The notes under the pieces were generated by a model that saw only the letters and a list, made by a program, of their open reading frames with translations, made no database searches and was not told where the DNA came from. From contig CM026554.1 of NCBI GenBank assembly GCA_015143295.1, forward strand, positions 27,559,215 through 27,623,214: a stretch of DNA of 64,000 bases. Direction: 5' to 3'. Every line of letters begins with the position of its first letter. Position 1 is the stretch's first letter. Shown here in pieces: positions 10,390-64,000 of this stretch. Made by a program: the position numbers and the translations under genes. The DNA comes from Tetracentron sinense. Taxonomy: Eukaryota > Streptophyta > Magnoliopsida > Trochodendrales > Trochodendraceae.

Positions 10390-11596
10390 CTCGAAGAGGG
10401 CAGGTAGCTTAGTACTGCTTCCGCTCAGGGTGCTATAAACTGGGTGGTAATAAGACGTATGTACAGATGGATTAGATGACGGTCAAGATGCTGAAGGAAG
10501 ACTGAGTTAAGACAATGATGAAAGTAGTGATGCGACACACATATGATCTGATGGATGACGTTTCGACATGGGACGTTGCCCCTTGTCTGGTCATGAATAT
10601 AGATATGTACAAAGAATGATGGATGTCTAATGCACAAAATTTCAGTTGTTAACATGTTGAATGTGGTGATATGCACAAATGAACAGAGCAAGTATACTCA
10701 GAAAATGGATGAGTCAGCTCAACGTGTGATCCAATGAGGTGAATGGGCAGAGGTCCATTTCACTTATCTGGGTTGTAGGAAGCCAGAGCCCAATGGGTCA
10801 AGATCGAAATGAATCAATGGATTCTCCATATGATTCTCTTTAGATCTAGGCTTTCAAACCTCACATGATTGAGCTAGCTAAAGAATGGATTAGGGTTAAA
10901 CCTATCTAGCAATCAAGGCTCACACAAGATCCAAAAATGGTTAAGTATAGGGATAAGATTATCCCTATACCTGAACAAATGATACAGGAGTAGCTTAAAC
11001 CAGTAACAGAATAGGGATAAGGTAGTCCCTCCTGACAGGTGTTCTTGGTTTATGCCCAAACAAAGACCTATAGTATATATGCTTATGCTGGTGTATACAA
11101 GGTTTTTGTCTAAAGGTTGATGAGCACTTGACCGTATATACGACTCCCCGGTATAGAATATACCTAAAAAGGGACGATTGGTGCAAGCGGGAAAGACCAG
11201 TTGCGTTAACCGGAGATAACCATCTTTCGGTCTACAACCAGTGCTTTCCACAGATCTTTGGGCTCCAGCATCGGGGATAACCATCCCTCGATTGTAAGCT
11301 TACCGGATCCAACTAGATAGGTGAGAGGGTCCTTATTCTGGTATGCATTGAATATGAATGTATATGAATACAATAATCAAAATCAAGCAATGAATAAAAA
11401 AATATGGAATCCTAGGCATGTCGCTAAGTTGGTAAACAAATGTCCAAGGTTCAATGAATGGCAACAAAATGAGTCAGTATATGTACAGATTAATAAAATT
11501 AGCAACATATAGATGTAATTAAAAGTTTCTGATATGGTTTCCCTTGTTCAGTTCAGACTTAGGTTTTGGCTTGAATACTGGTCTGCGAAACCAGAG
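10390..11596. other. Leader between gag and PBS, young element
   Basis: About 1.2 kb on the - strand between PBS and gag. No conserved protein is recognised; the open frames of about 60-120 codons have no domain. Ogre-type elements can carry an extra frame (ORF1) here, but I see no convincing one in this copy. Confidence 0.5.
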
Positions 11597-11614
11597 TCCC
11601 CAGCAGAGTCGCCA
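11597..11614 (-). promoter_or_regulatory. Primer binding site of the young element
   Basis: On the - strand TGGCGACTCTGCTGGGGA lies four bases inside the right LTR. Exactly the same 18 nt lie inside the right LTR of the element at 55502-64000 (63534-63551). It is not the initiator-Met site used by the old chromovirus; I associate this kind of PBS with Tat/Ogre elements. Confidence 0.85.
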
Positions 11615-49490: not shown

Positions 49491-50804
49491 TCTTTCAAAA
49501 CCAAATTCTACTTTGAGAAAACCCTCACGTCGAGACAAAACTCCTTTTCAAGCCAAAATCATTCTTTAAGACAAAACTCATGTTGATTCAAAAAAAATAT
49601 TTCAAAATAGAAGTGCATGTGATCATTGGTGAGCAACAACAAGCAAAATCCCTAATCGTTTAATAACATAGTCATAGTTTACAAAAATCAAGGTCATAGA
49701 CCTTGATTTCCCAAGCATCAAACTAACCTAATTTCTATTAATGAAATACAACGAGCTAGGTTTAGTATAGTGTATCTACCTTGGAAAGGTCGAAACCCCT
49801 TTGATCTTAAAGTTTGAGATGGTTGAGAAGCTTGGAGGAGTGAAATCATGCTTGAGGAAGAAGATCCAAGCCTTGGGATGCAAGAATCATGCTCTTCTTG
49901 ATCTCAAATGAAAATCCATTTTGGAAACCCTAACTCTCTCCCTTTTCTTCTCAAAATATGTTTCTCAAAGTGTTAAAACACTTAATCCCACGAAAATTAG
50001 GTATTTATAGGGTTAAGGTTGAAAAAATCAAGCTTATACCTTTTAAAAATCCAATTTTCGCATCCCCGCATGCAAATGTCGACATTTGGGTTACAGATGT
50101 CAACGTCTGGGTTGATTTGAGCATCTGTTTGTCCCAAAAATCGACGTTTAGTTACAGACATCGACGTCTGGGTGATCTGACTAACTTGAGTTTTTCCCGC
50201 TTTGGTATTTCGACCATAACTTTTGACTCGCTTATCGGATTTTGATGATTGAACTTGCATTGGACTCCTCATTCAAAGGAAAATAATTTTGTGGCTAATG
50301 GAAAATCTTAATTCTGAGTTATTAATTGTTTAAATGGCTTCTAAATCTGAATGGTCTAGGATGGATTACAGCAGACCAGAATTTCAGCAAATCAGATTTG
50401 AGAAATCCAACTTTTAACCTAACTTCGACTAAAAATCTAAAAAAATGATAAACATGAACATCCAAGAGGGTTTCGATATCTTTCTAAATGCTCAAGAATC
50501 ATTCGATTCCGATCATCGGTGACCAAACTAGAGTCTCTAAAGTTGAGGTATGTTAAGACATTCCCCTTTTGACACTAGAGTATTTTCTACTCTTGCATTC
50601 AACATCCATGAACCTAGGAAAACATTCTTAAGACATTTTCATATATTTAGAAAATCAAGATCTCTTCATCATCGAGAATCATTCAAGACTTTACACATAG
50701 CCTCAAGCCTTGAACACTATTCACTGTGCAGATACATTTGGGTCTGGGGTTCTGCACGGAGACCCGATATTATGTGTATGGAATGGATGGGTGTAAGTCT
50801 AAAA

Positions 50805-51705
50805 TGTCTTGGCTAATTCTGTATCAAAACATAGGTCTTAGTGGTGTCTTGTTTAAGTCAACTTGTCATGCTTGGTAAAGCTTCAAGAAGCCGAAGAAGA
50901 GGGAAGAAATCTACATCAAGCATTGCCTCCGGTTTTAGAAAGGTAATTAACTTTGTGACCCATAACCTAGGTTGGAATTTTCTTAGAAAATCTTATAATG
51001 AACCTAGGAGGTTAATGTTTTTCCCATGGAAAATGACCCAAGTGGCATGCTTATGAAAAATAATTAAGTATGCTTCAGCGGTCGACTGAAGGGGATAACC
51101 GGTCGACCGATTGAAGTGATTTTTGTTAGGGTATTTTTTTCCAGAGAGGGTTAATTTGACCGGTCGACCAATGGTCATGGCCGGTCGACTGAATGGCATA
51201 AAATTCGTATTGTTAGTCTTCTAACCTTATCCAAATACCTTGGGGACTATAAATACTTATTATATAAGACCTAGTTCGATAGATTTTTTGAGAAAGGTGT
51301 GAGAGGTGATCAAAAAACACTTTCTAGGGTTTTCATTGTTCTTGATCGACTACTCTTGATCCCTCCCTTCTCAATAGCTCTAGAGAATGCAAGATTGCTT
51401 TTAAATCCTTTGATCTTGCATTGTGTGATCTTAGATGTTTTAAGATTCCTCTAGAGAGAGAGTGATATAAAAATTGATTCAAAAACCCCAACACGTGTGT
51501 GTCTTTGGCCGGAGTATGTGATCCAGAGCCTTCGTAGAGGGAGATCGATCTTTGGAGATTGTGGAGTTGAGAAACTGGAGCTACTGTGGTGGAGATCGAA
51601 CCAGGTCGTTCGTGGTCTACAAGATGAAGATCCTATACCAAGGAACGTAGTGTCGTGTCCATGTTGGGTAAGGTCTAAGTCTTGTACTGTTAATCTCTCT
51701 TAGTG
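50805..51705 (+). repeat. Partial Copia LTR (relative of 18799-20307)
   Basis: Starts TGTCTTGGCTAATTCTGTAT, has GGTCGACCGG-type palindromes at 51079-51190, and a TATA box GGACTATAAATAC at about 51244. It ends at about 51705, soon after CTTGTACTGTTAATCTCTC, a word with a close match in the solo LTR read on its - strand. The 3' part is missing where the LINE sequence begins. Confidence 0.6.
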
Positions 51706-52784
51706 GATACTCTCATTACAAAAAATGAGAATATCATCGGCAAACAGAAGGTGGGTAATAGGGATAGCATGTCTCAAAGTTCTGAAATACCCGACCTTAT
51801 TGTCCTGAAAGATAGCCTTTAATCCTCTACTCAATACCTCTTATGCTAGAATAAATAAAGTTGGGGATAAAGGATCACCTTGTCTCAAGCCCCTCGAAGA
51901 CTAAAAGAAACCGTGAAATCTCCCATTGAGAATAACCAAGAAGAAAGGAGCAGAGATACAACCTTTAATAAGCTGCAAAAACTTATGATTGAATCCAAAT
52001 TTTTTAAAAGCCAACATCAGAAAATTCCAATCTACTCTATCATAAGCTTTCGCCATATCTAATTTAAATATCACATTACCTCCTCGAACTTTTTTGTTGA
52101 TGTTGGAAGTAAGATCTTGAGCCATAGATATATTATCTATAATGTTCCTGCCTTTGACGAATTCTGATTGCTCATCTGAAATAATCTTAGGAAGGATATG
52201 ACCCAACCTGGAAGTAATTACTTTTGTGATAATTTTGTATAAGACATTGCATAAGCTGATTGGACGAAAATCACCAAAAGTTGTAGGATTCTCCACTTTA
52301 GCTATCAAACACAACACAATAGCATTAATGGCTCTAGGAATAACGCCCTGATCAAAGAAATATTGGATCGCATTTACCAGGTCATCTTTGATTATCTCCC
52401 AACAATGCCGAAAAAAAATCCCGAAAATCCATCTTGTAGAGCCCCAGACTTTTTCATGCTTAAAACATGACACTTTCGTTGTCATTTTGCCTTTTTAAGA
52501 GGTATAATTAATAAATGAGGAAGAATTTGGAAATTTTGAAATGTCAGAATTGTTCCTCTTCGAAGTACGAACACAACGCAAGTTGAATCGTCAAAATCGG
52601 ACGAACGAGTCAAAAGATACGGCCAAAACAGTCTGGACCTGTAGGAAATCGTAGCTCAGTTATGCACTAAGGACGTGCTCTGACGTCGTACTCTGATAAC
52701 GTAGCATGGACAACGTACTCTGATAACGTATACTGTGTGCATCCGTTGTACAATTCACAACGGGCACGTTGTACAACTCACCAT

Positions 52785-53006
52785 GGGTACGTTGTACAGC
52801 ACCACGGGCACGCTGTACATAAGACAACGGACAACGGGTACGTCGTGCAGCTCACCACGGGTACGTTGTACAGCACCACGGGCACGCTGTACATAAGACA
52901 ACGGACAATGGGTACGTCATGCAGCTCACCACGGGTACGTTGTACAGCACCACGGGCACGCTGTACATAAGACGACGGATAACGTGTTCAGCACTGTCCA
53001 CAACAG
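52785..53006. repeat. 74-bp tandem array in U3 of LTR C
   Basis: Three units start at 52785, 52859 and 52933 (period 74), each with GGGTACGTTGTACAGCACCA and CGGGCACGCTGTACATAAGA. More loosely related CAACGGG/CACTGTTCACAGC words continue to about 53130. Confidence 0.9.
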
Positions 53007-54530
53007 ACAACGTGTTTGGCACTGTTCACAGCTCAACGAGCTCAGCACTATGCACAACACAACGGACAACGGGTTCGGCACCCTTCACAGCACCACGAGT
53101 TGGCACTGTTCACAGCACAACGAGTTCGACACTCGTGTTTTTACAGAAATTTAGTAAGGGTGTTATGGTCTTTTGTCAGTTCACTATTACCTTAAGAGTC
53201 TAACCCGAGCCCTTAGGACATCATTCGACACTTAGAGAGTTTGAGAGAATAGGAGAAAGGGGAGAAGGCGATTCCAACCTAGGGTTTCCATTTTGGAGAG
53301 AAATCAAAGGGTTTTGAAACCCTAGATCAACCTTAAGCCCGTTTTCTTCAAGATTTCGGTTCAGGCATTGTGGAGCTCGCGATCCAAGCTAGGGCAGCAA
53401 CTCACAGTCATTTGGAAAGAGGGTTTCTTTCTCATTTCTTCAAGGTCGGTACTTTTTACTACCCTCCTTGTTATAGTTCTTCTTTCCCCTTCTTTTCTTT
53501 TGATTTGCTTTCATTTACACATGTGCTATGAGATGGATGAATGGTGAATGGTAAATGGTGAATGGTGAATGGTGAATGGAGATGTAAGGGGCGATTGGAT
53601 GCCAGTGGTTGTGTGGTGATGATTAAAACGGGGAAGGGCATTGTTCCAATAATGAACATACATGTATGATTGAGTAAAACCATCTAGAAAAGCTTGTTGT
53701 AGGGTAAATCCATAATGAACACACCATGTTTGATGAAATGCCAAGGTGAATACAGTGAGCTGTAAATTAGGAAATGCATGCCTAATAAATTCTGAATATT
53801 GCTAGAACCTATGATAGGGTGTTTCCTGCTTTCCCTAAATGCTATGAATATTGAATTGCTCAATCTTTGATGCTATATGTGTTGTGAAATTACCCAATTG
53901 TCATGTTTAAATTTAAATGCAAGTATGTACACGATTCTCACGAGCACAGCATGCATGGCATGATTTATCGAGGTTTACAAGAACATGGTTAGAGGTGGGA
54001 CATATCCTACGATATGTTTTACCTCGCTTTTCACAAGAAGACAAGAACCAACATTTCCACGAGGGGTCTCCCCTCACTCACAAGTGCATATCATGAAGAA
54101 GGGCCTCCCTTCCCTCGCAAGTACATACATATCATAAAGAAGGGTCTCCCTTCCCTCGCAAGTGCATTGCATAATGAAGGGTCTCCCTTCCCTCACAAGT
54201 GCATCTCACAAGTTACATGATCACAAGCAAGCATGCATGACATGACACGACATACAAGAATTAAGTAAGATAGACAAGACAAGCTTTCAAGTACGAAAAG
54301 ATATTTCAAGTCAAGTCAAGTGCACGATGTTTTCAAGAGGATTTATCGGTTTTCTACAAATTACAAGCATGATTATAAACTGCTTTACTTCCTTGTATGA
54401 TGTGAATTGTTTCCGTTTGACATGTATGAATTGCTCCTGATCATGTATTGCCATTTCTATGCTATAATTGTTGGTTAGTATTTAGTACCCGCTGAGTATT
54501 CCATGCTCAGCCGTACTTCTTATGTCGGCA

Positions 54531-54641
54531 GGTTCTGAGGGAGCTGCTGCTCCATTTGATGTTTGTGCTCCTGGTCCATGGGTGGAAGAGGAGTACGTCG
54601 AGGAGCCTTTGGAGGAACCTCCCATAGAGGGTTATCAGTAG
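54531..54641 (+). other. Short conserved frame PGPWVEEEYVEE in LTR C
   Basis: After TATGTCGGCAG the frame GSEGAAAPFDVCAPGPWVEE continues EYVEEPLEEPPIEGYQ to TAG at 54639-54641. The match to LTR A is best at PWVEEEY. Function unknown. Confidence 0.45.
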
Positions 54642-55501
54642 GTGGTGATTAGATTCTGAGTGGATTAGCTGTGGGTGAGATGAGAGTTAGATTCATGTAT
54701 TTTGGCGGGCATGTCCGCACTTTCTTTTGGTGACTTTTTGTATAAACTTGGATTTGCGTATGTATATACATAGAGGTTTGGTAGACTTCCGCTGTGCTAT
54801 GTTAGAGTATGTTTCCGCTGTTTATGTCCTCTATTGTATATGCTCTGTGGGTTTTGCAGGTTGGTTTGTCAAGCAAATCATGTTTAGTCGTCCAAAGTTC
54901 ACTCTAACTCCTAGGGTGGGTTTTGGGGCGCGACACATCTAGTCCAGGCACTCCTAAAGGCTGCATTTCAAAGATCACTTGATGAATTTCCTTCATATCA
55001 GGCATCTTACATAACCCTTCATTATCTTCATTCGAAACTAAAGACGGAATAAAATCCATGATGTTATCATCCCCAGACATTGAATCTGAAAGTAAAATTC
55101 TTTGGAAGAACCTAACTGCTTCTTTTCCCATGTCCTCCTCCGTAGTTAAATTATTCCCATTTTTGTCTTTGATAGCATGCACCATATTCCTTTTCTGATT
55201 ATGCTGATAGACTGCATGGAAAAAATTTGTATTTTTGTCCCCCTCTTTCAACCAATGTTCTCTGGAATTCTGCTTCCAATAAATCTCTTCATAGTAAAGA
55301 TATTTTTTTAGCTCATTCCTAGCAATACATAACTACTTGTGCCCCTCTTTAGTGCAATTGTCTTGCATATTGTTCTCTAATTCTTCTGCCTTACTTTCAC
55401 AAGCCCGAAGCTGAATAAATATGTTTCTAAACCTGTTTTTGTTCCATGCAGAAAGAACAAATTTTAAAGATTTAAGTTTCAAGAAAAACGAAGTAAGAAG
55501 G

Positions 55502-56163
55502 TGTAGAGGGGTGTTTTGATTCTTGAAGAAATGGGGTTTACTGCAACCTCAATCTAGCCTAAATCCGATATCCAGACCGTTCTAAATTGAGTTATTTTTG
55601 GGAGAACTGATTCAGAGAACACAAGAAGGAAAAGGGGAAAAAGAAGGAAATGATTCAGAGGGAGAGAAGAAAGAACGATGAAGAAAAGTAGTGACAGAAT
55701 GTTTTTCTTGATGAATCCTTTACTTTCTCTCTTTGTAAATTCTATTTGGAAAATCTGATTGTTTTTGGAAAATCTTCCGGGAACTCGAAAAAGTCTCTCC
55801 CACAACAAGGAGGGGTCACCTCTATTTATAGGTGATTATCAAAATTGTAACTAACTTGTACAGTTGTCATAACCGTTTTTGTAACTGACTTTTAGAGAGA
55901 AAATATTGGATTCCATCAAGATAAAGGCGTTTGTCACCATACCTCCTTTAAGCTTTCATGACCAAAGCTTTCAGATATTTTCTTCAAAGGTTAAAAGCGG
56001 GATTCACAATATCCATCTTTTAACAAATTCTATCTAAGCCCTCCAAACCACAACTCATCATCCTCCCCCAAAAGCAATTGGTAACTACATCGTGAAAGCG
56101 GGTCATACGCTTTCATGGTGTACTGTCCTACTGAGGTAAAATATTAGTGTTCAGACAGCAACA
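55502..56163 (-). repeat. Left LTR of the Tat-lineage element
   Basis: 662 bp, TGTAGAGGGGTG to GACAGCAACA on the + strand. The - strand TATA CCTATAAATAGAGG is at about 55819-55832. On the - strand the bases before the LTR are CTCTAGAGGAG, a weak polypurine tract, which fits this being the 3' LTR of a - strand element. Confidence 0.82.
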
Positions 56164-56231
56164 CTCCTCTAGAGTAATAATCATGATAGTAATAATAATA
56201 ATAACGATGATAATAATCATCTAATAATCAT

Positions 56232-56443
56232 CTCAAGTCCTATAGGGAAATCATAGGTGTTGGACGAAGACACCCTTCCCGTATCTCAGGTCCAATAGGG
56301 AAATCGTAGGTGTTGGACGAAGACACCCTTCCCGTAGCTCAGGTCCAATAGGGAAATCGTAGGTGTTGGACGAAGACATCCTTCCCGTAGCTCAGGTCCA
56401 ATAGGGAAATCGTAGGTGCTGGACACCTGAAAATCTCAACTAA
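56232..56443. repeat. 53-bp tandem array
   Basis: Four units of CTCAGGTCCAATAGGGAAAT, CGTAGGTGTTGGACGAAGAC and ACCCTTCCCGTAG start at 56232, 56285, 56338 and 56391 (exact period 53). It lies just inside the left LTR, the 3'-UTR side if transcription is on the - strand. Confidence 0.92.
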
Positions 56444-56471
56444 TCCTGAAGGATATGTCCATCAGGATCCT

Positions 56472-57701
56472 TTGCCAAATCATAAAGCGAAAGATGTGGT
56501 TGCTATGGTCTGTCATAACTCAGTAATTATGACAGAAAAAGAAATTGAAGAGGAAATTATCCCTAATGATCAGTCGGCAATAGAAACTCTTTCACAGAGT
56601 TCAAAGTTTAAAAACTTCTTTGACCAGATGCATTTCTCAAAAGCGGTAAGAATAGCTGCAACAGCGGCTTTGACGACAGTCGCAGAAGCTCATTCAGAAC
56701 ATTGCTTTCTTGCCTATTCTGCTACAAGAAAGGCAATTCCGGAAATTCAAGATGTGAGTTTCACTGCTGATGATATGAAAGCCTCATCAATAGCTCACAA
56801 CAAGCCTTTGTATGTTACAGCTTTAATAAACTCTATTGAAGCAAAAAGAGCATTGATAGATCCTGGGTCTTCCTTAAACCTTATCCCGTTATCAACAACA
56901 ATAGCAATGAGATTAGATCCTTCAAAGATTTCAAAGCAGCCAATAGAAATATCAGGATTTGGAGGACAGTGCCAGAACACTATTGGCTATGCTACTATTA
57001 ATCTTCAAGTGGGGCCAATAAATTCAGCAATAAGAGTCCATGTTATTGAAGCCAACGTAAGCTATCATATTCTTCTTGGCCGCCCTTGGATCCACAAGTT
57101 CCAGCTAATACCGTCAACATTTCATCAATGTGTTAAAGGGATATACAAAGGAAAAGTCATCAGAATACTAGCAACTGCCACACCATTTGATAAAGCCGAA
57201 GCTCATATTTCAGAAGCATTGTTTTATGATGAGTTGGCTGAAGAAGGCGAAACCGCTTTTGAAATGGCCAAAGGAGTTATGCCACCATCATCCACTATTT
57301 TAACGCCATCAGAAATTTCAAAGGCCTCAAAAAGACCCCGAGACGAAAGTGTGAAAACAGAAATTCTAAGGGGGAATGCTATCAAAGAATCAAGAGCTGG
57401 AGGCTGTAAGAGGGTGATACAACCAGATGGAAAGGTTGTATATATCTTATGACAATCAAAGGAAACTGATTCATCAAAAGAAAATCAGATTCCCATGATA
57501 GATCAAATATTTCAAGCAGAAGAAACAAGTGAAATTGGGGAAGCGCCAAAACAGATGCAGGATGGTGTAAAAGCGGTACAAGAAAATCTTGAAGAAGTAA
57601 ATGTTGCAGAAAATTTATCAGAAAAGCGGCCAGTACTTATCAGTTCTAGGTTGGCCCCAAAAGAAAAAGAAGAATTGGTAAGTTTGCTCAAAGAATACTA
57701 A
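56472..57701 (+). pseudogene. Protease region of the Tat-lineage pol
   Basis: Two frames (56472-57452, 57495-57701) precede the long pol frame. The first has the aspartic protease block ALIDPGSSLNLIPLSTT and HILLGRPWIHKFQLIPSTFH, as seen in Tat elements. Gag should lie before it on this strand but is absent: only the 53-bp array and the LTR remain upstream. The reading is interrupted between this region and RT. Confidence 0.75.
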
Positions 57702-57728
57702 GATATTTTTGCATGGAATTATGAAGAA

Positions 57729-60700
57729 ATGCCAGGGTTAGATCCTACATTGGTCACACATAAATTGAATATTGAGCCAGGATATGTACCAATGAAGCAA
57801 ATGCCAAGAAAATTCAGACCAGATATTGAAGATCAAATCAAAATAGAAGTTGAAAAGCTTCTGAAAGCAGGTTTTATCAAGCCAATTCAACATCCAACTT
57901 GGTTAGCCAATATTATACCAATCAAAAAGAAGAATGGGCAAATCCGTTGCTGTGTTGATTTCAGAGATTTAAACAAGGCATGCCCAAAAGATGAATTTCC
58001 TCTACCCAATATGGACCTATTAGTTGATGCAACAGCAGGTCATGATGCTTTTTCATTCATGGACGGTTACAGTGGTTACAACCAGATCAAGATGGCAGCA
58101 GAAGATGCAGAAAAAACCGCCTTTCGAACACCAATTGGAAACTTTTATTATACAGTTATGCCATTTGGGTTGAGAAATGCCGGGGCGACTTATCAAAGAG
58201 CTATGACAGCCATTTTTCATGATATGTTCCATAATACAGTGGAAGATTATGTGGATGATATTGTTATCAAGTCTCGAAAGCGTTGCAGTCATGTCGAGGA
58301 TCTAAGAAGAGTTTTTCAACGGTGCCGCCATTATCAGTTAAAAATGAATCCGTTAAAATGCGCTTTCAAAGTTTCTGCAGGCAAATTCTTGGGGTTCATC
58401 GTGAATAGACAGGGTATAGATGTTGATCCTACAAAGGCTCAAGCAATTGCATCCATGACAGCCCCAAGCACAGTCAAAGAGTTGAAAAGTTTCTTAGGGA
58501 AGGTATCCTATATAAGGAGATTCATCCCAGGACTGGCAGCTGTCACAGTACCTCTTATGCCACTCCTACGGAAGAACTGTGTATTCAAATGGGAAACAGT
58601 GCATGAAAAAGCTTTCAAACAACTTCAACAAATGATGAGTTCAACAGCAACTATGATGGCACCAATCCCCAAAAAGCCTTTGGTCCTGTATCTGGCTTCA
58701 ACAGAAACCGCTATTGGAGCTCTTCTAGCCCAAGAAGATTTGTCTGGTTGTGAACGACCAATATACTATCTCAGCAGAATTCTCAGAGATGCAGAATTGA
58801 GATACCCTCGGATTGAAAGGAGTTGTTTATCTCTGATCTATGCCTTACAAAAATTTCGTCATTATTTACTATCTCATAAGATTTTTCTGATGACAAAATC
58901 TGATCCAATCAAATATCTCATGTCAAAACCAGTTCTTTCAGGACGAGCAGTTAAATGGCTCCTTTCGTTATCAGAGTTTGATATTACATGCCTTTGCCCT
59001 CGTGCCATCAAAGGACAAGCAGTAGCAGATCTATTGGCAAATTTCCCAGGAAATGATGATTTGATATTAAGAGAAGAACTACCAGGAGAATTCCCTGAAG
59101 CAATGACTATTGAAGCAAAACAGGAATGGTTCATGTATTTTGACGGATCTAAAACTGCAGATTCAGCTGGGGCAGGTATTGTGTTAAAAGCTCCTGGGGG
59201 TGAGGTAATGTCTTTTTCTTTCAAATTGGATTTTCCTTGTTCTAACAATATAGCAGAATATGAAGCTCTTCTCATAGGTTTGTCAATTGCTAAAGAGTTA
59301 AAGGCCAAAAGAATAAATGTAATAGGAGATTCCAATTTGGTAATTAGTCAAATGGAAGGGTCATTCAATGTAAAAGATGTTGGTTTGGCTCCTTACAGAA
59401 CAGCGGTTCAAAGAATAATGACTAATTTTGATAAGATAGAATTCAAATATCAAGAGCGTACAGGGAATCGCCATGCTGATGCACTTGCTACTTTGGCATC
59501 AAAGTTAATATTTGAAGGAGAATCTTCTCAGGTGGTAATTGAAAGGCGTATAATAGCTACACCGCTGATGGAAGAATTATGCGACACAGAATCAGAAGAA
59601 ACAGATTGGAGAGAACCAATTTTGAAGGATGTCTTCTGCCTTCATGATTCAACAGTAGTCCCTACCACAACACTGAAAGTCTTAAAAAATTTCTTGCAGA
59701 TAAATGGGGATCTGTATTTCAAAGGGCCTGAAGGAGTTTTGATGAGATGTGTTGGAGCAAAAGAAGCTAAGAAACAAATGATGCAAATCCACACAAAAAT
59801 ATGTGGGTATAATCCTTCTGTTAGTCTGTATAGGAGGTTACAGCGTTTTGGAATATACTGGCCAACAATGGAGAAAGATGCTGCTATGTTACAGAAAGAA
59901 TGTTCTCAAATATTGTCAGATAAAGAAGAATGTCACTTTACAAATTCTTGGGAAGATTGGAAGAAACCGTACAATGACTACTTCACAGATGGAATAATGC
60001 CTACTGATCAAAAGGAATCCTTCAAGTTTAAGAAGAAAGTTGCCAAATTCTACTTTGACAAAGGAGAATTATTCAGGAAAGGATACAACGGTATTGCTCT
60101 CAAGTGCTTGTCTGGAAAGGAGATCGAAATAGCATTACATGAAGCTCACAGTGGAGATTGTGGTGTTCATCAAGGAAAAAGAAAGCTGTTTCAACACATT
60201 TTGGGGTTGGGATATTATTGGCCTACTATGGAGGCAGATTCACACCTATATGTTCAAAGCTGTCATCAGTGTCAGATAAGAGGAAATGTCATTCATGCAC
60301 CTGCACAATCTCTACGGTATGTCTCTACGCCCTGGCCCTTTCATACTTGGGGGCTAGATTTAATCGGACCTGTTAATCCTCCTGCTGAAGGATATGTTTG
60401 GATACTTGTGGCTACTGAATATTTCACCAAGTGGGTAGAAGCTATACCATTAAGAAAGGCTACAGGTATCATGGTGGCTAAATTTATTAAAGAAAACATC
60501 ATTTGCCGCTTTGGGATACCAAAGGAGGTCATCACTGATAATAGAACGCCTTTCATAAATTCCAATGTAAGAGAGTTACTGGAGAAATATGATATCAAAC
60601 ACAAGAAGTCAACCCCCTATTATCCTAAAGGGAATGGGCAAGCAGAGGCTACTAACAAGACTATTCTGAAGATAATTGGAAAAATGATAGAAGGAGCTCA

Positions 60701-61199
60701 TAAAAAATGGTGTGAAAGACTTCCAACAGCGCTCTGGGCTTACAGAACTTCAGCAAGGACTGCAACAGGTGTTACCCCTTTTTCTTTAGTATATGGGACA
60801 GAAGCTGTTGTGCCTCTAGAAATCAAGATACCATCTACAAGAATTGAAGTATTTGATGGAGAGGAGGCATGCCTCCAAGCTGCTAGATTAGCTCAGCTAG
60901 AAGTTATGGATGAAAAGCGTGAAGCTGTAGCTATAAAGACAAAAGCGTATCAAAAGAGAGTTGCTAAAGCGTATGACAAGGCAGTACGACATAGAATTCT
61001 GAAAGAAGGTGACTTGGTCCTTCGAACAGCTATTCATATCAGGAATGGTACAAAAGTAGCAAAGTTTACTCCTAATTGGGAAGGGCCATTTTTGATAAGG
61101 CAAAGTTTTGACAGCGGTTATTGTCTTTTGTCTACGCCATCTGGTGAAATATTACATGATCCTATCAATGTAAAATGGTTAAAAAAGTACTATGCTTAA
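57729..61199 (+). CDS. Tat-lineage pol: RT, RNase H, second RNase H, integrase (1156 codons)
   Basis: One open frame. RT has CVDFRDLNKACPKDEFPLP and the catalytic YVDD at residues 174-177. The family's first RNase H spans about 300-425. The second, archaeal-type RNase H (MYFDGSKTADSAGAGIVL, NIAEYEALLIGL, GDSNLVISQ) spans about 466-595; the RNase H pair is a mark of the Tat lineage. An H2C2-like repeat lies at about 684-725. Integrase then has its H2C2 at about 802-848 (HEAHSGDCGVHQG, CHQC) and DDE residues in LDLIGPV, VITDNRTPF and GNGQAEATNK. It ends with a GPFLI-type C-terminal domain. The ATG at 57729 is only the first Met of the open stretch; the true product would be a polyprotein. It reads opposite to the element's PBS and TATA box. 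Confidence 0.92.
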   Translation: MPGLDPTLVTHKLNIEPGYVPMKQMPRKFRPDIEDQIKIEVEKLLKAGFIKPIQHPTWLANIIPIKKKNGQIRCCVDFRDLNKACPKDEFPLPNMDLLVDATAGHDAFSFMDGYSGYNQIKMAAEDAEKTAFRTPIGNFYYTVMPFGLRNAGATYQRAMTAIFHDMFHNTVEDYVDDIVIKSRKRCSHVEDLRRVFQRCRHYQLKMNPLKCAFKVSAGKFLGFIVNRQGIDVDPTKAQAIASMTAPSTVKELKSFLGKVSYIRRFIPGLAAVTVPLMPLLRKNCVFKWETVHEKAFKQLQQMMSSTATMMAPIPKKPLVLYLASTETAIGALLAQEDLSGCERPIYYLSRILRDAELRYPRIERSCLSLIYALQKFRHYLLSHKIFLMTKSDPIKYLMSKPVLSGRAVKWLLSLSEFDITCLCPRAIKGQAVADLLANFPGNDDLILREELPGEFPEAMTIEAKQEWFMYFDGSKTADSAGAGIVLKAPGGEVMSFSFKLDFPCSNNIAEYEALLIGLSIAKELKAKRINVIGDSNLVISQMEGSFNVKDVGLAPYRTAVQRIMTNFDKIEFKYQERTGNRHADALATLASKLIFEGESSQVVIERRIIATPLMEELCDTESEETDWREPILKDVFCLHDSTVVPTTTLKVLKNFLQINGDLYFKGPEGVLMRCVGAKEAKKQMMQIHTKICGYNPSVSLYRRLQRFGIYWPTMEKDAAMLQKECSQILSDKEECHFTNSWEDWKKPYNDYFTDGIMPTDQKESFKFKKKVAKFYFDKGELFRKGYNGIALKCLSGKEIEIALHEAHSGDCGVHQGKRKLFQHILGLGYYWPTMEADSHLYVQSCHQCQIRGNVIHAPAQSLRYVSTPWPFHTWGLDLIGPVNPPAEGYVWILVATEYFTKWVEAIPLRKATGIMVAKFIKENIICRFGIPKEVITDNRTPFINSNVRELLEKYDIKHKKSTPYYPKGNGQAEATNKTILKIIGKMIEGAHKKWCERLPTALWAYRTSARTATGVTPFSLVYGTEAVVPLEIKIPSTRIEVFDGEEACLQAARLAQLEVMDEKREAVAIKTKAYQKRVAKAYDKAVRHRILKEGDLVLRTAIHIRNGTKVAKFTPNWEGPFLIRQSFDSGYCLLSTPSGEILHDPINVKWLKKYYA

Positions 61200-61277
61200 T
61201 AAGAAAGGTAACAAAATTTTTTCTTTTGTATTCATATAAAATTTGACAAGAGTTACAAAAGAGTAAAGAAAAAGCTT

Positions 61278-62456
61278 TTACAAAATGTCAGAAGTAAAGC
61301 CTTTCTCATTTAGATATACAAGTCTTTCAGCAGAAGCTTTTAGACGAATATATTCTTCATGATCTGCTTTGATTTCCTCTTGTAGAACTGTCAGACTATC
61401 TTGAGCAGCTTTTATCTTCTTTTCTTTTTCTTCCAGCATGGCATGATGGCGGGCAATCTCTTGACGAATAATATGAATATTATCTTGATCACTTGATATT
61501 GCTTTCTTAATTTCTTCCGCTTTAACAATCTTGCTTGAATAAGAACTTTTCAGCTTAGCAAAATTCTTGGCCTGGAAGAAAGTGATAGACAAAATATTCA
61601 AAAAATCCACCAGCCATTTCACATCAACATTAATGTTCTCAAGTTCTTTCAGCTCTAGTATCCAATCCTCGAAGGTCTTCATCCTCAAGGGCGTAAGATG
61701 AGGCTTGATATCTCTAATGTTCCGAATAATAGAACACACTGTTTCTATACAGCCCGCCCTGATGATAGGGTTCTTCAAAGAACAAGAGGAAGTTATGTCC
61801 TTGTAACGCCTTGCTATTTCTGACCATAAAGGGAGAGAGCTTTCAGATACAGGATAACGCCTTAAGATCTCATCCGAAGAATCAGTTGGTGTCAGCGCAG
61901 TTGAAGTGGAAGGAGTAGTAGCATCTTCACTCACAAAAATCCCCACAAAGGCGGACAATTCCGATGAAGCAGTCTCCATACTGGAACCAATGATTGGAAT
62001 ATCTTCATGAATACTTCTTGGAGCGACTTCAGTTTCAGCATTAATATTCTCCTCCTCAACAATCTGTTCTGAAGAGCCAATGATAACGCTTTCAGTAGAA
62101 GCAATCATTTGAACACTGATGTTCTCAGTTGAAGATATCGGTGTATGAGCGCTTTTGTCAACAAAAGAAGTGTTGTAAAGGGGAGTAGAAGTCTCTGATA
62201 TGATTGCAGGAAGATCTTCAAAAGGCTGCTGCTCAGAGTTCTGAACCACAGAAGAGAAAAACGCTATCTCACTGACCGAAGGAGGTTCTACTTCCACTTC
62301 CATAGGCTGTTCTGAAAATTCAGCTTCAATTGGAGCACGAGTAATATTAACTTCAAAAGTGCTTGTTCCTGGAGCTGTTGTGACATCTCCTTCAACAGTA
62401 ACAAGTCTTGGTATTTCAGCCTGAACGCTTTCAGAAGGGCCTTCAAAATAATACAT
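61278..62456 (-). CDS. Unknown frame with C-terminal coiled coil (392 codons)
   Basis: It follows pol tail to tail, with about 80 bp between stop codons. Residues 1-200 are low complexity, rich in Ser, Thr, Glu and Ile. A more globular block follows (SSLPLWSEIARRYKDITSSC, then LRMKTFEDWILELKELENIN). The last ~100 residues look like a coiled coil (KAISSDQDNIHIIRQEIARH, EEKEKKIKAAQDSL). No known domain recognised. Extra antisense frames between pol and LTR (aORFs) and an ORF1 behind the PBS are both reported for Tat/Ogre elements; this could be either. A candidate splice acceptor CTAACAG lies just upstream (62458-62464), but I could not settle how it connects to the next frame. Confidence 0.6.
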   Translation of the reverse strand: MYYFEGPSESVQAEIPRLVTVEGDVTTAPGTSTFEVNITRAPIEAEFSEQPMEVEVEPPSVSEIAFFSSVVQNSEQQPFEDLPAIISETSTPLYNTSFVDKSAHTPISSTENISVQMIASTESVIIGSSEQIVEEENINAETEVAPRSIHEDIPIIGSSMETASSELSAFVGIFVSEDATTPSTSTALTPTDSSDEILRRYPVSESSLPLWSEIARRYKDITSSCSLKNPIIRAGCIETVCSIIRNIRDIKPHLTPLRMKTFEDWILELKELENINVDVKWLVDFLNILSITFFQAKNFAKLKSSYSSKIVKAEEIKKAISSDQDNIHIIRQEIARHHAMLEEKEKKIKAAQDSLTVLQEEIKADHEEYIRLKASAERLVYLNEKGFTSDIL

Positions 62457-62552
62457 ACTGTTAGAACACTATAATGATTGTAGTAATAAGCATATAAGCA
62501 TGTATATTGATAAAACACTTTTTTTTTTTAAAAAAAAAAAACTGCTACTAAC

Positions 62553-63526
62553 CTATGCTTTCAGAATCATCAATAGCGTCAATCATAAGAGGTGATGAAG
62601 ATTGCGCTGTCCTTTGAAGAAGAAGTGACTTCGCCTTGATAGCTTGCGATCTCATTCTCTTCAAAGATGTTAACGCTTTGGCTATGTCAATAGTTCTTGC
62701 AGGGTTTGCGGTTCTCCGAACACCGGAAGCTTTAGCAGATTGATATTTCTTTTGTGAAAGCGGAGAGGAACTGGGTTCACTCTCAGGCCAAACATTTGCC
62801 AAATTCTCAATTTGTACTCTTGCTTCCGCCGATGGAGGGAAAGGAATATCGGCAACATCATCTTCAGGGATGCTGAGTCCCACTGGAGTAGATGGAGTTC
62901 CAGAGCTTCCTGCACCAACATCCGAAAGCGGTGCTGTATTCTTCTCTTGAGTAACAGAAGCCTCAGTCCTTCCTAACTCATGTTGAGTCTGCAGATTCTG
63001 CTTGCGCACAATCAATGGCTCGTTATCTTCACTATCAGAAGAAGGATCCTGTGACAAATTTAAGAAAAAAAAAATATATAAATATAAGTGAGGAAAAACT
63101 ATACAGATGAGAAATTGAAAAGCGTATGAATAAGAAAAATGTTTTAATTATAAAAGCTTTGCTTACTGATTGGCTCTTTCGCTTCTTAGAGGGAGGAGCC
63201 TTCTTCTTTATTGCAATCTTTTTGATTCTAGGCGCTCTTGGAGTAGCCGCCTTTGGAGCAGTAATAATTGCAGGCTGAGGAGGAGTAATGTTTTCCTCTC
63301 GGATCTCTGAGGAACCTCCACCAGCAGTTTTTGATTTAGGCTTCTTGTGTGGAGAAGCTACCGCTTTCCTTTTCTTGCCTGCACCAGGTGCCTCTTTCAG
63401 ACATTTTTCCTTGTCAATAGCCAAATTAACTGTTTGACTGAGCATTGGCGGACCTTGAACAAAGGCTTTGAAAGTAGCAATGCAAGCTTTCCAGAAAAGC
63501 TGGTAGTTCTTCGTACATCTGCCCAT
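62553..63526 (-). CDS. Unknown basic, low-complexity frames behind the PBS, with a candidate intron
   Basis: The ATG at 63526 lies eight bases after the PBS. The first open part (63526-63167) is Lys-rich, with nuclear-localisation-like KKRKAVASPHKKPKSK and KKKAPPSKKRKSQS. A candidate intron 63166-63049 has GTAAGC at its 5' edge, a T-rich tract and TTTGTCACAG at its 3' edge, and falls between codons. The next part (63048-62553) is acidic, then Ser/Pro-rich (DPSSDSEDNEP...), ending near a GTTAG donor-like site. No domain recognised. The product would be a nuclear, disordered protein if made. Start choice is by first Met only. Confidence 0.55.
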
Positions 63527-63533
63527 CCTGTGC

Positions 63534-63551
63534 TCCCCAGCAGAGTCGCCA
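63534..63551 (-). promoter_or_regulatory. Primer binding site of the Tat-lineage element
   Basis: TGGCGACTCTGCTGGGGA on the - strand, four bases inside the right LTR, identical over 18 nt to the PBS at 11597-11614. This orients reverse transcription as for a - strand RNA. Confidence 0.8.
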
Positions 63552-63555
63552 AAAA

Positions 63556-64000
63556 TGTAGAGGGGTGTTTTGATTCTTGAAGAAATGGGGTTTACTGCAA
63601 CCTCAATCTAGCCTAAATCCGATATCCAGACCGTTCTAAATTGAGTTATTTTTGGGAGAACTGATTCAGAGAACACAAGAAGGAAAAGGGAAAAAAGAAG
63701 GAAATGATTCAGATGGAGAGAAGAAAGAACGATGAAGAAAAGTAGTGACATAATGTTTTTCTTGATGAATCTTTACTTTCTCTCTTTGTAAATTCTATTT
63801 GGAAAATCTGATTGTTTTTGGAAAATCTTCCGGGAACTCGAAAAAGTCTCTCCCACAACAAGGAGGGGTCACCTCTATTTATAGGTGATTATCAAAATTG
63901 TAACTAACTTGTACAGCTGTCATAACCGTTTTTGTAACTGACTTTTAGAGAGAAAATATTGGATTCCATCAAGATAAAGGCGTTTGTCACCATACCTCCT
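63556..64000 (-). repeat. Right LTR of the Tat-lineage element (partial)
   Basis: Matches 55502-55946 almost exactly and is cut by the window end. The - strand TATAAATAGA is at 63874-63883, with transcription directed toward the PBS and the - strand frames. Confidence 0.9.

Follow-up and report, generated by a model that had tools for sequence, protein, structure and literature searches.

Structure of the element

An LTR retrotransposon in the genome of Tetracentron sinense carries its LTRs, promoter and PBS on the minus strand and its protease and pol frames on the plus strand. This raised the question of whether the locus represents a new element organisation or a damaged copy of a familiar one. 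We analysed 64,000 nt of the forward strand of contig CM026554.1 (GCA_015143295.1, 27,559,215-27,623,214; hereafter the window), which corresponds to C4:27559215-27623214 in an assembly of 1.16 Gb and 1479 contigs. We estimate a probability of roughly 90% that the element is a single defective, rearranged copy of an Ogre/Tat-type Ty3/gypsy retrotransposon, sited in a repeat that we take to be LINE-like. The arrangement is an inversion combined with deletions. It looks like a broken copy, ordinary in kind and with an informative junction, and does not indicate a new element organisation.

An earlier note on this DNA had set the LTRs, TATAAATAGA and PBS of one strand against a 1156-codon pol on the other, and these assignments were borne out, with TATAAATAGA present in both LTRs (Table 1). 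The PBS is an exact 18-mer complementary to a tRNA-Arg gene from the same genome, at its 3' end with CCA added. A pattern search recovered four identical matching genes in the assembly, one of which was confirmed by ARAGORN as having the anticodon ACG. The reported lack of a plus-strand PBS also held, with no plus-strand site in the window within three substitutions of the tRNA-Arg 18-mer, the one sequence to which the search was confined.

The element begins at 55502, as had been proposed, and continues past the window to approximately 65285 (position 1800 of L009, a stretch extending 9.4 kb beyond the window end) instead of ending inside it. Its outer LTR ends are intact, reading TGTAG... 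and ...CAACA on the plus strand. The claim of near-identical LTRs held, with agreement at 915 of 923 aligned columns, seven substitutions and one gap; one of the substitutions, 56419, sits within the left junction itself. At a plant rate of 1.3e-8 substitutions per site per year, the insertion would date to roughly 0.25-0.3 million years ago. The 53-bp tandem array, previously described as lying beside the left LTR, is in fact inside U3 and is also found in the right LTR.

Within pol, Pfam domains were located at residues 65-225 (RVT_1), 314-417 (RT_RNaseH), 471-589 (RVT_3) and 870-966 (rve). The remnants of an antisense ORF beyond pol run in the PBS sense. The 392-aa piece of this ORF contains a match to PEARLI-4 (Pfam) above the cut-off (E 7.4e-08, window 61281-62456, minus strand).

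Table 1. Coordinates of the element and of its two inversion junctions in the window
Feature	Position	Strand	Comment
Target-site duplication GAAGG, left copy	55497-55501		right copy beyond the window, L009 1801-1805
Left LTR (3' LTR in PBS sense), U3-truncated	55502-56424	-	923 bp, against 1730 bp for the right LTR
TATAAATAGA, left LTR	55821-55830	-	read from sequence
53-bp tandem array	56232-56424	-	within U3 of the left LTR; also in relatives' LTRs
Left inversion junction	56413-56424		fuses a unit of the U3 array with the gag/pro boundary; 10 of 12 positions match
Protease-region ORF	56472-57452	+	weak Pfam aspartyl protease matches, under their cut-offs; inverted relative to LTR and PBS
pol ORF, 1156 codons	57729-61199	+	RT, RNase H, a second RNase H-like domain (RVT_3) and integrase; runs opposite to LTR and PBS
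Antisense ORF of the family, C-terminal remnants	61278-63526	-	pieces of 392, 169 and 163 aa
Right inversion junction	63534-63541		exact 8-bp identity TCCCCAGC between relatives' 3' region and last 8 nt of PBS
PBS	63534-63551	-	18/18 complementary to tRNA-Arg(ACG) with CCA
TATAAATAGA, right LTR	63874-63883	-	read from sequence
Right LTR (5' LTR in PBS sense)	63556-64000, on to ~65285 outside the window (L009 71-1800)	-	1730 bp in total

The site of insertion was examined by joining the two flanks into a single query. Of the 40 matches listed, 38 span the site uninterrupted and the other two are the insertion's own halves; 26 of the 38 cover nearly the whole query, the best at 90% identity. A minus-strand ORF of the host repeat (51901-52485) matches RVT_1 in Pfam (E 4.7e-19), and a second host-repeat ORF (54904-55251) gave no Pfam match. 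In L070, an uninterrupted copy of the repeat, one ORF holds stretches that by eye resemble both. The host repeat is thus itself split in the window (51901-55251, minus strand), the stretches of this one ORF lying ~2.4 kb apart and separated by tandem arrays whose periods are 74, 59 and ~37-41 bp.

Relatives of the family and the missing regions

The closest relative that we fetched is a copy on C19, which has its own target duplication, GAAAG. Its order, assembled from two stretches via their coordinates, is 5' LTR, PBS, gag, pro, pol, antisense ORF, ~2.2 kb and 3' LTR. The gag region spans ~1.4 kb with its leader and matches Retrotrans_gag (E 1.1e-14), pol carries an insertion of ~2.4 kb, and the ~2.2 kb before the 3' LTR includes the rest of the antisense ORF. 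By eye, cagacagggggctaaa, which adjoins this LTR, is presumably the polypurine tract.

PBS and pol share one sense in eight of the nine fetched relatives in the orientation set (L010, L012-L018 and L038). The ninth, L014, contains an LTR, the leader and part of gag, and its stretch has no pro-pol match; a tandem array with a period of ~144 bp lies nearby (L014:8231-9322). Four others (L035, L036, L037 and L039) cover 3' ends only. The canonical gag leader directly follows the PBS in all 29 distinct copies at a tolerance of six errors. These comprise ten distinct early loci and 19 new ones, after removal of duplicates (L010, L052 and longer stretches of the same copies); 28 were drawn from the top 40 of 921 candidates and the top 40 of 715, and L038 from another search (40 of 220 scored). 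The count thus describes the stronger copies, with weaker ones outside the sample.

Set against these relatives, the segment 56413-63541 (7.1 kb, from the gag/pro boundary into the antisense ORF) is colinear and inverted between the LTRs. The earlier suggestion of an interior inverted between the LTRs is therefore supported, the eight relatives showing the opposite relation, with deletions in addition. The copy has lost gag (~1.4 kb with the leader), the 3' region including the presumed polypurine tract (~2.2 kb) and 0.8 kb of the U3 of one LTR. The gag stretch of the C19 copy matches fully in L017 and L038 and partially in L014, and its 3' stretch matches fully in L036, L037 and L039, with L038 reaching it at the stretch edge; neither has any match in the window or L009, and a simple inversion was rejected on this ground. 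Without gag and a 3' region, and with pol antisense to the LTR promoter, the window copy should neither make its own proteins nor act as a normal template.

In one relative the antisense ORF, 3' of pol, encodes 649 aa, of which residues 83-496 match a plant mobile domain (L035:6664-8613, E 1.1e-46), and the domain is also found in L036 (E 1e-27). The right junction of the window copy falls near residue 480 of this ORF (649 aa in the C19 copy), and the domain is almost wholly cut off.

The inversion junctions

Both junctions lack filler. At the left junction the exact overlap at the switch is 2 bp (TG), and none of the 123 words of at least 8 nt shared between U3 and the gag/pro region was used there. 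At the right junction, the chance of an identity of at least 8 bp at a random join is ~1e-4. In the C19 copy the two compared regions (1.4 and 4.0 kb) share 126 words of at least 8 nt, and TCCCCAGC is the only one that touches the PBS.

The earlier note had proposed that multiple junction copies with different target-site duplications would show the arrangement to transpose, and had named a single-copy junction as evidence to the contrary. With up to three mismatches allowed, a limit beyond which more diverged copies would fall, we found each junction solely at the window locus, and no insertions sharing junctions as in a family with antisense pol. The left pattern gave one match in the assembly. 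The right pattern gave 34, consisting of the exact window locus, three with two mismatches and 30 with three; from their sequences we read the 33 mismatched ones as probable generic PBSs beside other neighbours. A pattern for noncanonical neighbours of this LTR's PBS, which by design misses many possible neighbours, returned nine matches among which, by eye, the window alone is noncanonical, so that no second event of this kind appears among the nine.

That each junction was found once could also point to an assembly join error or chimeric reads. We consider this very unlikely, since there are no N bases in positions 50001-64000 of the window or in L009, the junctions fall at short identities and not at long repeats, and one duplication is common to both outer ends.

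These results also bear on the proposal that a formerly antisense frame now serves as the sense gene, in a maintained lineage whose LTR-driven RNA carries pol in antisense. Such a lineage would account for an open pol frame, near-identical LTRs and antisense ORF remnants lying in the PBS sense. The single-locus junctions, the canonical relatives with the same LTRs (both for orientation and for the leader), the truncated antisense ORF and the missing gag and 3' region argue strongly against it within the scope of the searches made, and we give it almost no credence. An open pol frame and LTRs this similar, from which the arrangement had been thought either recent or maintained, are consistent with recent insertion by a family that was active not long ago and do not show maintenance.

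Affiliation of the element

The copy displays features of the Tat clade, namely LTRs with TG...CA ends, a 5-bp target duplication and a second RNase H placed after the first and before integrase, the position described for Ogre/Retand in the available part of PMC6317226. A PBS complementary to tRNA-Arg characterises Ogre according to the accessible text of PMC9289625, and the available part of PMC6317226 reports that 57% of Ogre elements carry an ORF encoding a plant mobile domain. We observed such an extra ORF in relatives L035 and L036. On the basis of the tRNA-Arg PBS, the plant mobile domain ORF and the RNase H position, we provisionally place the copy on the Ogre side of Tat. The likeness to the Ogre/Tat (OTA) superclade of plants lies in these same three features. 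The window copy differs in its inverted interior without gag and 3' region; in the relatives, the ORF bearing the plant mobile domain lies on the 3' side of pol and runs antisense to that gene.

Retand elements, as the accessible portion of PMC11963269 describes them, have antisense ORFs between pol and the 3' LTR. The relatives share this position, and the pol-3' LTR region of the C19 relative (~4.5 kb) falls inside the range given there. In contrast, the LTR of 1.73 kb exceeds the 315-1,194 bp in that source, and none of the scanned ORF pieces (three from the window, two from L035 and one from L036) matched the Retand feature Transposase_28.

A neighbouring element with an extended tRNA complement

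A separate, unrelated LTR element in the window (11578-11614, minus strand) has an exact tRNA-Arg 18-mer PBS that is directly followed by a 19-nt complement of the anticodon arm of tRNA-Arg(ACG), with 13 tRNA nucleotides skipped. We counted 362 occurrences of the 34-nt pattern in the assembly, with three mismatches at most and the wobble base free, and none of its reversed control. The wobble position is G in 95 and A in five of the 100 occurrences listed, and A in the four tRNA-Arg genes found. The wobble base of mature tRNA-Arg(ACG) is inosine; it pairs with C, and copying turns it into G. The pattern thus suggests that the extension was copied from, or is in extended pairing with, the mature edited tRNA. 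The available part of PMC6317226 matches the PBS of Bianca elements to an edited half-tRNA; in the literature searched, no paper on extension of a PBS into the anticodon arm was found by title.

Origin of the inversion

Two accounts of the flip have to be weighed, and the position of the right junction is where they differ. Plus-strand strong-stop DNA terminates exactly at the tRNA-templated end of the PBS. The right junction lies at this end, and a misplaced second-strand transfer would explain its position. Our first choice, held tentatively and at a little short of even odds, is that the flip arose during reverse transcription, when a misplaced transfer of plus-strand strong-stop DNA gave an internally inverted cDNA still competent to integrate. 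The strong-stop DNA would end in the tRNA-templated PBS, ...GCTGGGGA-3', and its 8-nt end would have annealed to a complementary site in a pol-sense strand, either genomic RNA or plus-strand DNA, bypassing the minus-strand PBS. Synthesis would then have proceeded in reverse across the antisense ORF, pol and pro, a second switch would have taken place inside the U3 array, and the inverted product would have integrated normally. A PBS exact to the tRNA is a requirement of strong-stop copying and we count it for this origin; a misplaced transfer also allows for one full and one truncated LTR. Several points weigh on the other side. The coincidence with the PBS end was spotted post hoc, exact PBSs are common (17 of the 29 relatives), the exact overlap at the left junction is only 2 bp within its partial match, and two transfers and a pol-sense template are required.

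The 8-bp identity is also compatible with microhomology-mediated repair. The element may have inserted in the usual way while its interior was still canonical, and two breaks or template switching in replication may later have flipped that interior, with loss of its ends and joining at short identities. The short identity at the right junction, the 10 of 12 matching positions at the left and the absence of filler are in keeping with this account, as are the loss of sequence at both ends of the flip and the intact outer ends and duplication; a microhomology-mediated replication model has been published (PMC2621351). Left unexplained is why the right junction lies exactly at the PBS end, at one of 126 shared words. 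We regard this account as a serious contender and place the reverse-transcription origin slightly ahead of it.

Two other routes were rejected. Autointegration, in which an LTR end attacks the interior, does not fit, since both junctions lie away from the LTR termini, one at the end of the PBS and the other within U3. A template switch in minus-strand synthesis alone would cost the U3 start and the polypurine tract, by which reasoning both LTRs would be truncated, and the right LTR is full length.

The best relative of the LTR is the C19 copy (judged from the top 40 of 921 candidates and the top 40 of 715). For a 1.2-kb piece of pol the best relative is on C11, with the C19 copy second, and the 148 bp at the left edge of the interior are closest to another copy on C19. 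The interior may have come from another copy, with C11 ahead of the LTR's best relative for the pol piece; judged by sequence similarity, an own interior and one from a donor copy would both fit this pattern, which does not decide between them.

A parallel exists in HIV-1, where the available part of PMC9278108 describes defective proviruses with one full and one truncated LTR, or with an internal inversion, and for asymmetric-LTR proviruses proposes transfer of strong-stop DNA to the PBS of another genome. The element and host are different, and that text attributes the asymmetric forms to deletion, not to a flip. An account of this exact structure or its origin was not found in the literature searched; papers beyond it may contain one.

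The question of a new organisation is mostly settled by these findings, since the arrangement appears to be a one-off. In a family with a natural antisense ORF, an inverted copy can pass for a new organisation. If junctions at the PBS end recur in other inverted copies, they would show that strong-stop mispriming generates inverted elements which remain able to integrate.
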